Translations under genes and position numbers: made by a program
In this document: piece after piece, positions 1-57,447 of the stretch
Layout: every line of letters starts with the position of its first letter
Numbering within the stretch: position 1 is the first letter of the stretch
Source: Euryarchaeota archaeon SM23-78
GTDB taxonomy: Archaea; Nanobdellota; Nanobdellia; Woesearchaeales; SM23-78
Direction of reading: 5' to 3'
Length of the DNA: 64,000 bases
NCBI GenBank assembly: GCA_001595785.1
Contig: LSSJ01000005.1
Span: forward strand, 1 to 64,000
The notes under the pieces: model-generated
Told to the model about the DNA's origin: nothing
Databases searched by the model: none
Seen by the model: the letters and a program-made list of their open reading frames with translations, nothing else

Positions 1-120
1 CAAGTTTTTGAGGTATTCCCTTTTCAAGCAAAACCAACAAAAACAAGTTTTTGAGGTATTCCCTTTTCAAGCAAAACCAACAAAAACAAGTTTTTGAGGT
101 ATTCGCTTTTCAAGCGAAAC
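1..120. repeat. 43-bp direct tandem repeat (two near-identical units plus a diverged third), truncated by window edge
   Basis: CAAGTTTTTGAGGTATTCCCTTTTCAAGCAAAACCAACAAAAA at 1-43 and 44-86; third unit from 87 diverges into TTCGCTTTTCAAGCGAA. Confidence 0.9.
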
Positions 121-7783: not shown

Positions 7784-7801
7784 AAAGAAATGCTCCAAGA
7801 G

Positions 7802-7937
7802 GACTCCGGCACTTTTTTGTGCTAGGAGTCGTCTACCTTTAGCTAAGTATCAGAAATGCTTTGCATTTCTGGACTCACAAAAGCTTTGCTTTTGATGAGT
7901 TTTGGGAGTGAGCATTTTTGCGAACGGGTGAAAACTT
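7802..7937 (+). repeat. modular hairpin element, copy A
   Basis: 29-nt hairpin 7802-7830; short hairpins AGAAATGC-TTT-GCATTTCT and CAAAAGC-TTT-GCTTTTG; GTGAGC-ATTTTT-GCGAAC module at 7898-7937. Confidence 0.8.
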
Positions 7938-7938
7938 A

Positions 7939-8184
7939 ATGGAAATTAAGATTGATACAAAAAAAGATTCTCCTGAAGACATTAAGAAAGCTATTGAGTT
8001 GTTGCAAAGAATTGTTGAGGCTAGCGAAGAGTATGGTTCAAGCAAAGGAGATTCAGGCAGTGATGTTGCTAGTGGTATGGTAGGTTTATTTGGAGACACG
8101 CCTGTATTGGGAGATGATTATGATGATGACGATGAAGACAAGGATGAAGAAGAGAAAGAAAGAATACAAATCATCCCTTACTAG
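7939..8184 (+). CDS. hypothetical acidic protein
   Basis: ATG 7939; acidic C-terminus DDYDDDDEDKDEEEKE. Confidence 0.6.
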   Translation: MEIKIDTKKDSPEDIKKAIELLQRIVEASEEYGSSKGDSGSDVASGMVGLFGDTPVLGDDYDDDDEDKDEEEKERIQIIPY

Positions 8185-22618: not shown

Positions 22619-22696
22619 AGAAAAAAGGTTCTTACAAATAAAAAATAATTTTTCATAACTTATTACTAAAATAAATCTATAAGGAGGTTGTAATTA

Positions 22697-22875
22697 ATGT
22701 CAGACAACAAAAATTCTTTGAATTTTTGGGTCGAGCAAAATCAAAGATTTTGGCGCACCAAAAGCAAAGCTTTTGATTGCCTCATAATTTTGACCGGAGG
22801 TAAAAATTATGTCGGACAACAAAAATTCTTTGAATTTTTGGGTCCTCATAATTTTGACCGGAGGTAAAAATTATG
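22697..22875 (+). promoter_or_regulatory. repeat-built leader of aCPSF1: three SD-ATG units, tandem 64-bp duplication, RBS-looping hairpins
   Basis: CATAATTTT-GACCGGAGGTA-AAAATTATG at 22783-22811 and 22847-22875. Confidence 0.8.
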
Positions 22876-24768
22876 TCGGAAATCATAGATGAAATTCTTA
22901 AGCACCTGCCCAAGAACAAGGTTAGTGATGCTGTTTTTGAAGGAGCAAACATTGTTCTTTACACCAAGAACAAGGACTTCTTCTTAGATGACAAAGGGAT
23001 TGTGAGAGAAGTTGTTAATATGATTAAGAAAAGGATAGAGCTCAGACCAGACCCCGGTGTGTGCATGGAGCAGGAGAAGGCTGAGAAGCTTATTAAGAAG
23101 ATAATCACTGATGAAGCTGGTATTGAGCAAATCATATTTGATCCTCAGAGGAGTATTGTGATTATTGAGGTGCAGAAGCCTGGCCTGGCTATTGGCAAGC
23201 AAGGTGAGAACTTGCAGGAGATAAAAAAGCAGACTTTCTGGGTGCCTCAGATTAAGAGAACCCCTGCGATTAGGAGCCAGATAATAGAAAACATTAGGGC
23301 TGTTCTCTACCAGAACAATGATTACAGAAGGAAGTTCCTGCACAAAACAGGTCAGAGGATTTATAATGGCTGGCTCAGGCGGGAGAAGAAAGAGGAGTGG
23401 ATTAGGCTGAGTATGCTAGGAGGAGCAAGACAGGTGGGTAGGAGTTGTTACTTCTTGCAAACCCCTGAGTCAAGAGTGATCTTGGATTGTGGTATTGATG
23501 TTGCTAATGAAGAAGAGGCTTATCCTTATCTTGAAGCACCTGAGTTTAATATCAAGGAGTTAGACGCAGTTATTGTGAGCCATGCCCATCTTGACCACTC
23601 AGGACTTGTACCGTACCTGTTCAAGTTCGGTTATAGAGGGCCTGTTTACTGCACCCTACCAAGTAGAGATATTATGAGTCTACTGCAACTCGACCTTATC
23701 AAGATTCAAAGGAATGAAGGGAAAGAACCCATATATACAAGTGAGGAGATAAAAGAGATGGTTAAGCACACCATTTGCCTTGACTATGAAGAGGTCACTG
23801 ATATAACTCCCGATGTCAGGATAACTCTTTACAATGCGGGTCATATGCTTGGAAGCGCTCTTGTGCATATTCATATTGGTAATGGTTTGCACAACATGGT
23901 GTACACAGCAGATGTAAAATATGCAAAGACCAACATGTTAAGCTTAGCAGCCACTAATTTCCCAAGGCTAGAGACCTTAATGATAGAAGCTACTTATGGA
24001 GGAAAAGATAATGTTCTGCCTCCTATCAAAGAAGCTGATGCACAGCTAAGCGAACACATTATTGAGACTATAAACAAAAAAGGAAAAGTACTTCTTCCTG
24101 TTCTTGGGAGTGGAAGAGCCCAGGAAATCATTGTGCTCCTAGATAAGCTTATGCGCGAAGGCCATCTGAGTGATAAGATACCCATATACATTGATGGAAT
24201 GGTATGGGATATTACTGCTATACACACTGCTTATCCTGAGTTTCTTAACAGCAGTGTAAGACAACAAATATTTCACAAGGATAATAATCCTTTCTTACGA
24301 GAGAACATTAAGAGGATTGGAAGTCCTAAGGAGAGACAAGACTTAGTAGAGGAGAAAGGTCCTTGCATAATCCTAGCAACCAGTGGTATGCTAGTAGGAG
24401 GTCCTAGTGTTGAGTATCTCAAAGCCTTATCCGAGAATCCAAAGAACCTGTTGATATTCACTTGTTATCAGGGTGAGGGCAGCCTTGGGAGAAGGATTCA
24501 GCGTGGAGAGCGAGAGATTAATTTCCAGAAAGGCAACAAAGTGGAAACTTACGAGATAAAAATGGATATTGAGAAACTAGAGATAACAGGTCATAGTGAT
24601 AGACGAGAATTAATGAGTTTTATAAATCACTGCAATCCAAAACCCAAAAGAGTTATTGTTGTGCATGGTGAGAGCAGCAAGTGCTTGGATTTGGCTAGGA
24701 GTGTTCATAAGGGCGCAAGAGTCGAAACCATTGCTCCTAGGAACCTGGATGTGTTGAGGTTGAAGTAG
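22873..24768 (+). CDS. aCPSF1/FttA: KH + beta-CASP transcription termination ribonuclease
   Basis: KH (GLAIGKQGENLQEIKKQ), HAHLDHSG, SGRAQE, GEGSLGRRIQRG, ITGHSDRREL. Confidence 0.95.
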   Translation: MSEIIDEILKHLPKNKVSDAVFEGANIVLYTKNKDFFLDDKGIVREVVNMIKKRIELRPDPGVCMEQEKAEKLIKKIITDEAGIEQIIFDPQRSIVIIEVQKPGLAIGKQGENLQEIKKQTFWVPQIKRTPAIRSQIIENIRAVLYQNNDYRRKFLHKTGQRIYNGWLRREKKEEWIRLSMLGGARQVGRSCYFLQTPESRVILDCGIDVANEEEAYPYLEAPEFNIKELDAVIVSHAHLDHSGLVPYLFKFGYRGPVYCTLPSRDIMSLLQLDLIKIQRNEGKEPIYTSEEIKEMVKHTICLDYEEVTDITPDVRITLYNAGHMLGSALVHIHIGNGLHNMVYTADVKYAKTNMLSLAATNFPRLETLMIEATYGGKDNVLPPIKEADAQLSEHIIETINKKGKVLLPVLGSGRAQEIIVLLDKLMREGHLSDKIPIYIDGMVWDITAIHTAYPEFLNSSVRQQIFHKDNNPFLRENIKRIGSPKERQDLVEEKGPCIILATSGMLVGGPSVEYLKALSENPKNLLIFTCYQGEGSLGRRIQRGEREINFQKGNKVETYEIKMDIEKLEITGHSDRRELMSFINHCNPKPKRVIVVHGESSKCLDLARSVHKGARVETIAPRNLDVLRLK

Positions 24769-27456: not shown

Positions 27457-29157
27457 TTGGAACCAATCTTTTTTAGTATTGGGATTATCATTATTATTGC
27501 TGCTATTGGGGCTTATCTTGCTCGTGTATTAAAACAGCCTTTAATCCCTGCTTATATCATTGTTGGTATTATTCTTGGGCCTGTGCTCGGTTTAATCACA
27601 GAACGTTCAATTATTGCTGCTCTCTCAGAGATAGGAATAGCCTTCTTGTTGTTCAGTGTTGGTCTTGAGCTTAATCTTAAGAAATTAAAAGATATTGGTA
27701 ATGTGGCTACTGTTGGCGCTCTCATGCACATGGGCTTATTATTTGGTGCTAGTTATGTTGCTTTCAAGCTCTTCCTTAACTATGATAACCTTACAAGCAT
27801 ATATATTGGTTTAATCCTTATGTTCTCAAGCACGCTTGTGATTATTAAGCTACTCTCAGATAAGAATGAGCTTGACACCTTGCACGGCAGGATAATCATT
27901 GGCATGCTCTTAATGCAGGACATAGTTGCCATTGTTGCTCTTAGCATGCTTAACAGTATTGGTCACTTCACCCTAGGTCCTATCATACTCATGTTTGTGA
28001 AAGGAGTTATTATCTTTTTACTAGGCTTGTTCCTTGCAAAATTAATCTTCATAAGTGTTTTCAAGTTTGCTGCTAAGAATGATGAATTGTTATTCATCCT
28101 CTCAATCATGGCTATGTTTGTTTTTGCAATCATCTATCACTACATTGGTTTTAGCATAGTAATAGGTGCTTTTATTGCAGGCTTACTCTTAGGCAGCTTG
28201 CCTTACAACCTTGAGATAATAGGCCAGGTTAAGGGTTTAAAGGATTTCTTTGCAGTAATCTTTTTTGTTAGTATAGGCTTAGAATTAATACCTGTGAGTA
28301 TAAGCAGTATTCTTCTTCCCTTGGGTGTGATGCTCGGCTTAACCCTTATTATCCTTCCCTTGCTCACCCTATTCTTGCTTGCCTTGTTTGGATATAAGAA
28401 GAGAACAGCCTTTTTGACAAGTATTAGTTTGGCTCAGATATCAGAGTTCAGTCTTATCATAGTAGCCTTTGGTTTTAACCAGGGTCATATCAATTCTGAG
28501 ATTTTCAGTTTGACCATACTTGTAGCAATCATCACTATTGGCTTAACAGCTTATATCATAAAGTTTGATGACAAGCTATATCAGTGGTTTGGAAAAAAAC
28601 TTACTATCTTTGACAAGTTAAGCAAGCATAACAAGGAATTAATAAGCTACTTAGAAGAAGGAGCAGAGCACAAAGTCGTATTAGTGGGTTATGACAGGAT
28701 TGGGTACAGCATATTAAAGAAACTTCACATGCTGAAAAAGAACGTGGTAGTAGTTGATTTAAACCCTGACATCATAAAACACCTAATAAAGAAGAAAGTG
28801 CCTTGTATCTACGGAGACATAGGAGATATTGAGATTATTAAGAGGCTTAGACTTGAAGAAGCAGAACTAGTTATAAGCACAGTCCCAAACCATCACGACA
28901 GTATGCTACTCATAAAAAAGGTGAGAGAGATTAACCCTGAGGCTACTATCATTGTTACGAGTTATGATGCAGAAGACGCTCTTGAGCTTTACAATAAAGG
29001 AGCAGACTATGTGGTTGTGCCTCACTTCCTAGGAGGAGAACACATCAGCCTTATCCTTGAGGAGTTAACCACTGATCTTAATAAGTTACTTAACATAAAG
29101 ATTAGTCATATCAAGGCTTTGCAGGAGCGGAGGAAGAGGCATCCGCATCATAGATAA
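27457..29157 (+). CDS. Kef-type K+/H+ antiporter with TrkA-N domain
   Basis: 12-TM antiporter domain; VVLVGYDRIGYSILKKL Rossmann motif. Confidence 0.9.
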   Translation: MEPIFFSIGIIIIIAAIGAYLARVLKQPLIPAYIIVGIILGPVLGLITERSIIAALSEIGIAFLLFSVGLELNLKKLKDIGNVATVGALMHMGLLFGASYVAFKLFLNYDNLTSIYIGLILMFSSTLVIIKLLSDKNELDTLHGRIIIGMLLMQDIVAIVALSMLNSIGHFTLGPIILMFVKGVIIFLLGLFLAKLIFISVFKFAAKNDELLFILSIMAMFVFAIIYHYIGFSIVIGAFIAGLLLGSLPYNLEIIGQVKGLKDFFAVIFFVSIGLELIPVSISSILLPLGVMLGLTLIILPLLTLFLLALFGYKKRTAFLTSISLAQISEFSLIIVAFGFNQGHINSEIFSLTILVAIITIGLTAYIIKFDDKLYQWFGKKLTIFDKLSKHNKELISYLEEGAEHKVVLVGYDRIGYSILKKLHMLKKNVVVVDLNPDIIKHLIKKKVPCIYGDIGDIEIIKRLRLEEAELVISTVPNHHDSMLLIKKVREINPEATIIVTSYDAEDALELYNKGADYVVVPHFLGGEHISLILEELTTDLNKLLNIKISHIKALQERRKRHPHHR

Positions 29158-29170
29158 TTATTTCATTTAA

Positions 29171-29513
29171 AAGTTCAAAAAATAGTAGTGCCAATTTGCG
29201 CAAGTTTTTCCCCGTTCGCTACGCTCACTATAAAAACTTATCAAAAAGCATAGCTTTTTGTAAGTCCAAAAATGCAAAGCATTTTTGATACTTGACTAAA
29301 AAAGGCGACATGCGCACACAAAGACGTGTGCTTAGTCCCCTACAAGGGGTTCCGGTCCGTTTTGGGACTAGGAACCGCTTGCCTTTTGCAAACTTTTGGG
29401 AGCGAACGAAGTGAGTGGGCGAAAAGTTTAGCGGAATAGGGGGTTGCCCCCTACGGGGAGGTGGAGCCCTCGACATTATAAGCGTGCCCGAGCCGGCACT
29501 ATTTTTTGAACTT
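29171..29513. mobile_element. inverted-repeat-bounded modular hairpin element (MITE-like candidate)
   Basis: AAGTTCAAAAAATAGTAGTGCC (29171-29192) / GGCACTATTTTTTGAACTT (29495-29513); many internal hairpins. Confidence 0.65.
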
Positions 29514-44337: not shown

Positions 44338-44539
44338 CTGCTTTGTTGTCCCAGAGCTCTTTCATTTTGGCTTGCTGGATTTTGTGCAGAAATTCATCGT
44401 ACTGATTTTTCTTTTTCACAGCCTGAAAAACAGGTATCATATTATTGATGAGCTCATTATATGTTTGCCGGGGATATTCTCTGGTTTCTTTTAACAAATT
44501 AACCACTTCCTTGTCTAATTGTATTGTTGTTGAACTCAT
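44315..44539 (-). CDS. antitoxin partner
   Basis: Small RHH/coiled-helix ORF overlapping toxin start. Confidence 0.7.
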   Translation of the reverse strand: MSSTTIQLDKEVVNLLKETREYPRQTYNELINNMIPVFQAVKKKNQYDEFLHKIQQAKMKELWDNKADEEWENA

Positions 44540-44571
44540 TATATATCACCTATAATTAGTATATAATGAGT
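44534..44571. promoter_or_regulatory. 11-bp-arm inverted repeat overlapping antitoxin start codon
   Basis: ACTCATTATAT ... ATATAATGAGT. Confidence 0.65.
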
Positions 44572-44589
44572 TATATATAAAGTTTTCTA

Positions 44590-57307: not shown

Positions 57308-57447
57308 AGCTATGTAAATGATTTTGTGTTTAAATAGCTCACGCAAACAGATGTCCAGTGAGCCAACAAAAATTCTCTAAAAATTTTTGTGTGCCATAAA
57401 AAGCAGAGCTTTTTATGTCAAAACAGAAAATCATAATTTAATAGCTG
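57308..57447. repeat. inverted-repeat-bounded hairpin element
   Basis: AGCTATGTAAATGATTTT (57308-57325) / AAAATCATAATTTAATAGCT (57428-57447); internal hairpins incl. CATAAAAAGC-AGA-GCTTTTTATG. Confidence 0.55.

Follow-up and report, generated by a model that had tools for sequence, protein, structure and literature searches.

How does the gene for a general archaeal termination factor come to have its start codon buried in a perfect hairpin? This question arose for aCPSF1 in a 64,000-nucleotide stretch of DNA from Euryarchaeota archaeon SM23-78 (the window; we denote this genome G000). According to the original prediction, CATAATTTT at 22847–22855 pairs perfectly with AAAATTATG at 22867–22875, and both the sequence and the coordinates proved exact. 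The ATG at the 3′ end of this stem begins a 631-residue protein that is recognized as aCPSF1/FttA (TIGR03675, 857 bits, aligned from residue 2). The intervening loop, GACCGGAGGTA (22856–22866), is also as described, but only part of the GGAGG that was thought to be looped out is unpaired, because ACC and GGT inside this loop also pair. The full hairpin reads CATAATTTT-G-ACC-(GGA)-GGT-A-AAAATTATG, with 12 base pairs, one mismatch, and GGA as the apical loop. Stems of 9 bp are not rare per se (14 places in the 64 kb); 64 nt upstream of this 29-nt hairpin lies a second copy with identical sequence. On its own, the hairpin has a predicted folding energy of −7.4 kcal/mol at 37 °C (z −2.3 with flanks), and the structure is predicted to be stable up to about 55 °C, with melting at around 65–75 °C. 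A search of Rfam returned no family at the curated threshold, the best match being SraB with 17 bits against the 130 needed.

Both copies of the hairpin belong to an insertion of 176 nt at the start codon of aCPSF1 (22697–22872, Table 1). The DNA that separates the proteasome beta gene from aCPSF1 in the congener G003 aligns colinearly with the window as far as the Shine–Dalgarno sequence (SD1) and the start codon; from there on, the window carries the 176 additional nucleotides. The insertion is also missing at aCPSF1 in G001, G002, G004, G005, and G006. Its elements follow each other in the order ATGTCAGA, mini-hairpins, ribosome-binding-site (RBS) hairpin, ATGTCGGA, mini-hairpin, RBS hairpin, ATGTCGGA. 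The insertion hence consists of two units, with the start-codon repeat ATGTC(A/G)GA at every unit boundary. Mini-hairpins of the form CAAAAxC-AAA-GxTTTTG are dispersed over the genome, with 51 matches when one mismatch is allowed, compared to 1 match for the reversed control pattern. Folding predictions for the full insert suggest that the two RBS hairpin copies can alternatively pair with each other, in which case the start codon would still be covered.

Table 1. Features of the aCPSF1 start region (window coordinates)
Feature	Position	Strand	Remark
SD1 (GGAGG), ancestral aCPSF1 RBS	22683–22687	+	colinear with the G003 leader (...AAAATAAATCTATGAGGAGGTTATGCAT-start)
Insertion unit 1, 112 nt	22697–22808	+	from start codon 1 to the intermediate start; direct repeats; congeners without
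Direct repeat copy 1, ATGTCAGA	22697–22704	+	resembles a target duplication
Mini-ORF 1, 56 codons	22697–22867	+	stop TAA 22865–22867 right behind SD2, 5 nt before ATG
Mini-hairpin CAAAAATTC-TTT-GAATTTTTG	22708–22728	+	
Mini-hairpin CAAAATC-AAA-GATTTTG	22736–22752	+	dispersed family
Mini-hairpin CAAAAGC-AAA-GCTTTTG	22759–22775	+	dispersed family
RBS hairpin, first copy	22783–22811	+	identical sequence
Insertion unit 2, 64 nt	22809–22872	+	ends of unit 1, minus 48 nt with two mini-hairpins
Direct repeat copy 2, ATGTCGGA	22809–22816	+	
Mini-ORF 2, 27 codons	22809–22892	+	crosses the aCPSF1 start; stop TGA begins 17 nt past the A of ATG
Mini-hairpin CAAAAATTC-TTT-GAATTTTTG, second copy	22820–22840	+	
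RBS hairpin of aCPSF1	22847–22875	+	SD2 GGAGG 22860–22864; ATG2 22873–22875 at 3′ end of stem
Direct repeat copy 3, ATGTCGGA	22873–22880	+	first aCPSF1 codons
aCPSF1/FttA host gene, 631 aa	22873–24768	+	TIGR03675 and Pfam KH_TffA

The same architecture recurs at the start codons of other genes. In 763 kb sampled from the approximately 1.48 Mb of G000, 801 start candidates are preceded by a Shine–Dalgarno sequence. Among these, the Shine–Dalgarno sequence lies in a hairpin that extends to the start codon in 12 cases for stems of at least 8 bp and in 8 cases for stems of at least 9 bp, whereas swapping upstream regions between genes gave expectations of 1.8 and 0.7, respectively. In 9 of the 12 cases an element of the kind found at aCPSF1 lies upstream; the host genes, with identities checked against family models, are aCPSF1, RpoN, GT2, PheT, Spt4, NAC, uS14, FKBP, and a gene with an NTP-transferase domain. 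Inspection of the places with mini-hairpins added units at LSm, at the NiFe-hydrogenase large subunit, at a CopG/ParD-like gene (two tandem units), and at a gene on contig C4. Congeners carry units at uS2 and NAC (G002), at uS3 and a porB-like gene (G006; this name relies on a weak TPP-enzyme match of a partial sequence and on our own reading), and at Spt4 and the NTP-transferase gene (G003); a 200-kb sample of G005 contained no start-codon unit. For most host proteins, the alignment to the family model begins at residue 1–6 counted from the downstream start (start 2), and we therefore take start 2 to be the native one. A recognizable SD1 in front of the upstream start (start 1) is missing in eight of the listed units, namely those at PheT, the hydrogenase, CopG (unit 1), porB, uS3, uS2, NAC of G002, and one Spt4 of G003. 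Mini-hairpins occur at roughly 38 places in the genome, most of them away from start codons.

Other palindromes occur apart from these units. An 833-residue secreted, S-layer-like protein is encoded outside the window at G000:C5:82751-85252 (−), and immediately 5′ of its ATG stands TTAAACAC-GGAG-GTGTTTAA, a palindrome that is nearly the same as that of the Spt4 unit and comes without mini-hairpins or an upstream start. In the window, a 13-bp palindrome, AACTCATTATATA...TATATAATGAGTT (44533–44572, −), extends across the Shine–Dalgarno sequence and the start of a 74-residue, possibly antitoxin-like gene; it has no array and could be an operator. Larger composite palindromic repeats at 29150–29500, 7800–7940, and 57366–57417 are intergenic and contain similar mini-hairpins, sometimes with stems of the GGACTCCGG...CTAGGAGTC type.

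The reading frames that open at start 1 show a regular relation to start 2. In 12 of 15 units, the first stop of the mini-ORF is located 10 nt or less from start 2, compared to 3 of 30 in the other two frames (Fisher p 5e-6), a test that treats the 15 units as independent and uses start 1 positions and unit ends set partly by eye, a choice that could favor coupled frames. Shuffled unit interiors would give 3.1 such units. A mechanical scan pointed in the same direction, with coupling in 6 of 16 cases with a mini-hairpin and 12 of 200 without. The stop–start junction is ATGA in RpoN, GT2, Spt4, uS14, and the C4 gene, and TAATG in NAC. In none of 16 units are start 1 and start 2 separated by a multiple of three (p 0.0015), so that the mini-ORF is never in the host frame. 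Related units differ in length by multiples of three (Spt4 45, NAC 3, CopG units 45, aCPSF1 units 48), except for the NTP-transferase unit, which is uncoupled and differs by 1 nt. Coupling is not obligatory, because in three units (FKBP, NTP-transferase, and uS2) the mini-ORF ends 52–70 nt before start 2, which is too far.

Comparison between sites suggests that the units spread. RpoN and GT2 are not related and lie on opposite strands of the same contig; their elements are the same apart from 1 of 59 nt, and each copy is flanked by the first codons of its own gene (ATGATT and ATGATA). The CopG-like gene of G000 and porB of G006 have a 101-nt element in common with 13 differences, including a compensatory change from C-G to T-A that we read from the alignment. 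Repeats of the start are clear for RpoN, PheT, GT2, and aCPSF1; that of NAC comprises only 4 nt, and uS2 and the hydrogenase have no clear repeat. A control for chance showed that 6-nt start repeats are common (216 pairs), and we therefore place the weight on RpoN/GT2, PheT, aCPSF1, and the empty sites. Such empty sites exist in congeners for aCPSF1, RpoN, PheT, and LSm. At Spt4, G000 and G003 carry a unit, and the site is empty in G001, G002, and G004; the mini-hairpin part of the G000 unit is 45 nt longer than that of G003, and the 25-nt RBS hairpin is identical in both. At NAC, units are present in G000 and G002, their 29-nt RBS hairpins being identical, and G001, G003, and G004 have an empty site. 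The NTP-transferase site is filled in both G000 and G003. At these three shared sites the RBS-hairpin stems are unchanged or nearly so. The filled and empty patterns fit no one simple species tree, which makes repeated insertion, loss, or exchange of units likely. From these comparisons we infer that the units are mobile. An intact Y1 transposase (PF01797) was not found in these incomplete assemblies: G000 has a fragment, G002 a broken copy, and G003, G004, and G006 none.

Assembly artefacts are an improbable source of the insertions, since separately assembled genomes contain matching ones (G000 with G003, and G000 with G002). Two Spt4 start regions in G003 (C22:1-90 and C95:316-498) have the same insertion, one of them with unrelated DNA upstream. 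RpoN-like genes on G002:C8 and G006:C15 match only from residue 7, with different upstream sequence and a frame that breaks near codon 6. At or near contig ends (window 38–96, G000:C18:2-103, and G000:C29:23504-23605), CAAAAACAAGTTTTTG/CAAAAACAAGCTTTTG recurs every 43 bp, and this tandem array may have broken the assembly.

How could an essential gene tolerate such an insertion? We consider it probable, though well short of certain, that a palindromic mini-cistron, with the aCPSF1 hairpin as its 3′ end, was inserted at the start codon and is tolerated through termination–reinitiation. In a unit, the Shine–Dalgarno sequence of the host (where present) and the start codon are followed by a few native nucleotides and then by one or more AT-rich mini-hairpins. 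The 3′ part of the unit is a hairpin with a left arm complementary to spacer and start codon and with a new Shine–Dalgarno sequence (SD2) in its loop or inner stem, and the unit ends with a repeat of the start codon and the first codons. In this proposal, ribosomes that load at start 1 would translate a mini-ORF of some 17–56 codons and, on nearing its stop, unfold both the mini-hairpins and the RBS hairpin. Reinitiation, or entry of fresh 30S subunits, would then take place at the host start codon. Translation of the mini-ORF would thereby open the RBS hairpin and allow a restart at ATG2, which would let essential genes accommodate the insertion and would link host gene expression to translation of the mini-ORF.

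Studies on Haloferax have shown that termination–reinitiation requires overlaps or very short gaps, most commonly of −4 and −1 nt (PMC6728339, PMC10666635), and that in Haloferax and E. coli reinitiation is nearly lost at a gap of about 20 nt (PMC10666635). Translation of an upstream cistron can also open a structure that blocks the downstream start (PMC6728339). The RBS hairpin would repress initiation, and the predicted folding of the one at aCPSF1 suits a block to be opened by a translating ribosome. The position of the stops argues for translational coupling between mini-ORF and host gene. Mobility and coupling together are the inference that the evidence best supports.

The original prediction saw in the hairpin a simple translational or thermal switch on the aCPSF1 gene, to be given up if relatives lacked any pairing. 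Its geometry holds in that a stable hairpin over part of the Shine–Dalgarno sequence and over the start codon could restrain initiation, and since aCPSF1 is a ribonuclease, one could even imagine feedback through cleavage of its own leader. The dedication to aCPSF1 is not supported: the hairpin is missing from all six congeners and from 78 other Woesearchaeota aCPSF1 leaders, in which no stem exceeds 6, the same architecture precedes unrelated genes, and no Rfam family corresponds to it. The predicted melting near 65–75 °C argues against an RNA thermometer at ordinary temperatures. We consider a dedicated aCPSF1 switch very unlikely and instead regard the hairpin as part of a family of start-codon insertions that belongs to the genus. 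It is also scarcely plausible that the mini-ORF peptides function as leader peptides for amino-acid sensing or ribosome stalling. Open frames are kept between species, and the CopG and porB peptides are identical at 30 of 35 residues, but synonymous and non-synonymous codon changes are equal in number (5 and 5), the peptides of different units are unrelated, and the same peptide precedes RpoN and GT2, genes without a common function.

The least credible explanation is ribosome bypassing as in T4 gene 60, with a start at ATG1 and a hop between the direct repeats that is aided by the hairpins and by the Shine–Dalgarno sequence before the landing site. Direct repeats do flank a structured insert, and a Shine–Dalgarno sequence precedes the second repeat; however, a complete SD2 with its start codon makes hopping unnecessary, several units have only a few nucleotides common to both starts, and bypassing predicts neither stops near start 2 nor length changes in multiples of three. 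These two regularities also count against a neutral origin, which we judge unlikely but still worth serious consideration. Palindromes that are mobile or generated by replication, for example through template switching or a Y1-type enzyme, would spread, and those at gene starts would persist only if they left a usable Shine–Dalgarno sequence and start codon. The host would initiate de novo at SD2, with the mini-ORF as a by-product. This would agree with most of the roughly 38 mini-hairpin places not being at start codons, with the three uncoupled units, and with the complete SD2, which makes de novo initiation possible. On the other hand, it leaves unexplained the stops near start 2 (12 of 15 versus 3 of 30), the lack of in-frame units, and the multiples of three, and de novo initiation would not favor a stem that spans the start codon.

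If insertion followed by coupled restart is indeed what happened, elements of this kind have survived at the starts of essential genes for RNA polymerase, elongation and termination factors, ribosomal proteins, and PheRS, whereas known small palindromic elements are mostly intergenic or read through in frame. The units would show how a mobile sequence makes a destructive insertion site safe, suggest a birth route for leader ORFs and overlapping cistrons, and provide a natural test set for archaeal termination–reinitiation in a DPANN lineage without genetics. Gene-start calls in these genomes need care. More tentatively, the units may represent a new class of mobile element aimed at start codons, a possibility that we rate somewhat below even. 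Such an element would duplicate the host start, supply a fresh Shine–Dalgarno sequence in a hairpin of its own making, and keep essential host genes alive by termination–reinitiation, so that insertion at the most sensitive place in a gene would be nearly harmless and add a control point.

The units have features in common with several known systems. RNA thermometers of the ROSE and fourU types also hold the Shine–Dalgarno sequence and the start codon within a hairpin; the units differ in that their predicted melting is far above ordinary growth temperature and that they recur at unrelated housekeeping genes. REP sequences with Y1 (RAYT) transposases are likewise dispersed arrays of small hairpins. 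However, REPs are extragenic, whereas the units lie at start codons, and instead of an intact Y1 transposase G000 contains only a fragment, while G003 and G006 carry units without Y1. MITEs and other small repeats (Correia, ERIC, BOX, RUP) are also short, AT-rich, hairpin-forming, and dispersed, with apparent target duplication, which in the units is clear at RpoN, PheT, GT2, and aCPSF1 and short or absent at NAC, uS2, and the hydrogenase. The units are distinguished by their place at start codons with a regenerated RBS. In addition, their palindromes are internal, with no terminal inverted repeats seen spanning a unit (unit ends being set by eye), and a search with PF01797, the sole profile used, found no parent transposon. 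A start-codon-specific palindromic element was not found in the open-licence literature, which is weak evidence of novelty. Rickettsia palindromic elements resemble the units as small dispersed palindromes with an open frame inside that occur in unrelated protein-coding genes (PMC2229807, PMC10969869). These elements, of about 105–150 bp, are read in frame within the host protein, whereas the units lie at the start codon with their own Shine–Dalgarno sequence and in 0 of 16 cases are in frame with start 2. Another parallel is found in coupled overlapping genes (Huber et al. 2019, 2023; PMC6728339, PMC10666635), which have ATGA, TAATG, or short-gap junctions with a Shine–Dalgarno sequence before the junction. 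In 12 of 15 units, likewise, the upstream stop overlaps the downstream start or lies no more than 10 nt from it (5 nt at aCPSF1). In coupled overlapping genes, however, the upstream cistron is an ordinary gene, whereas here it is a short mini-ORF inserted in the host gene's own start.
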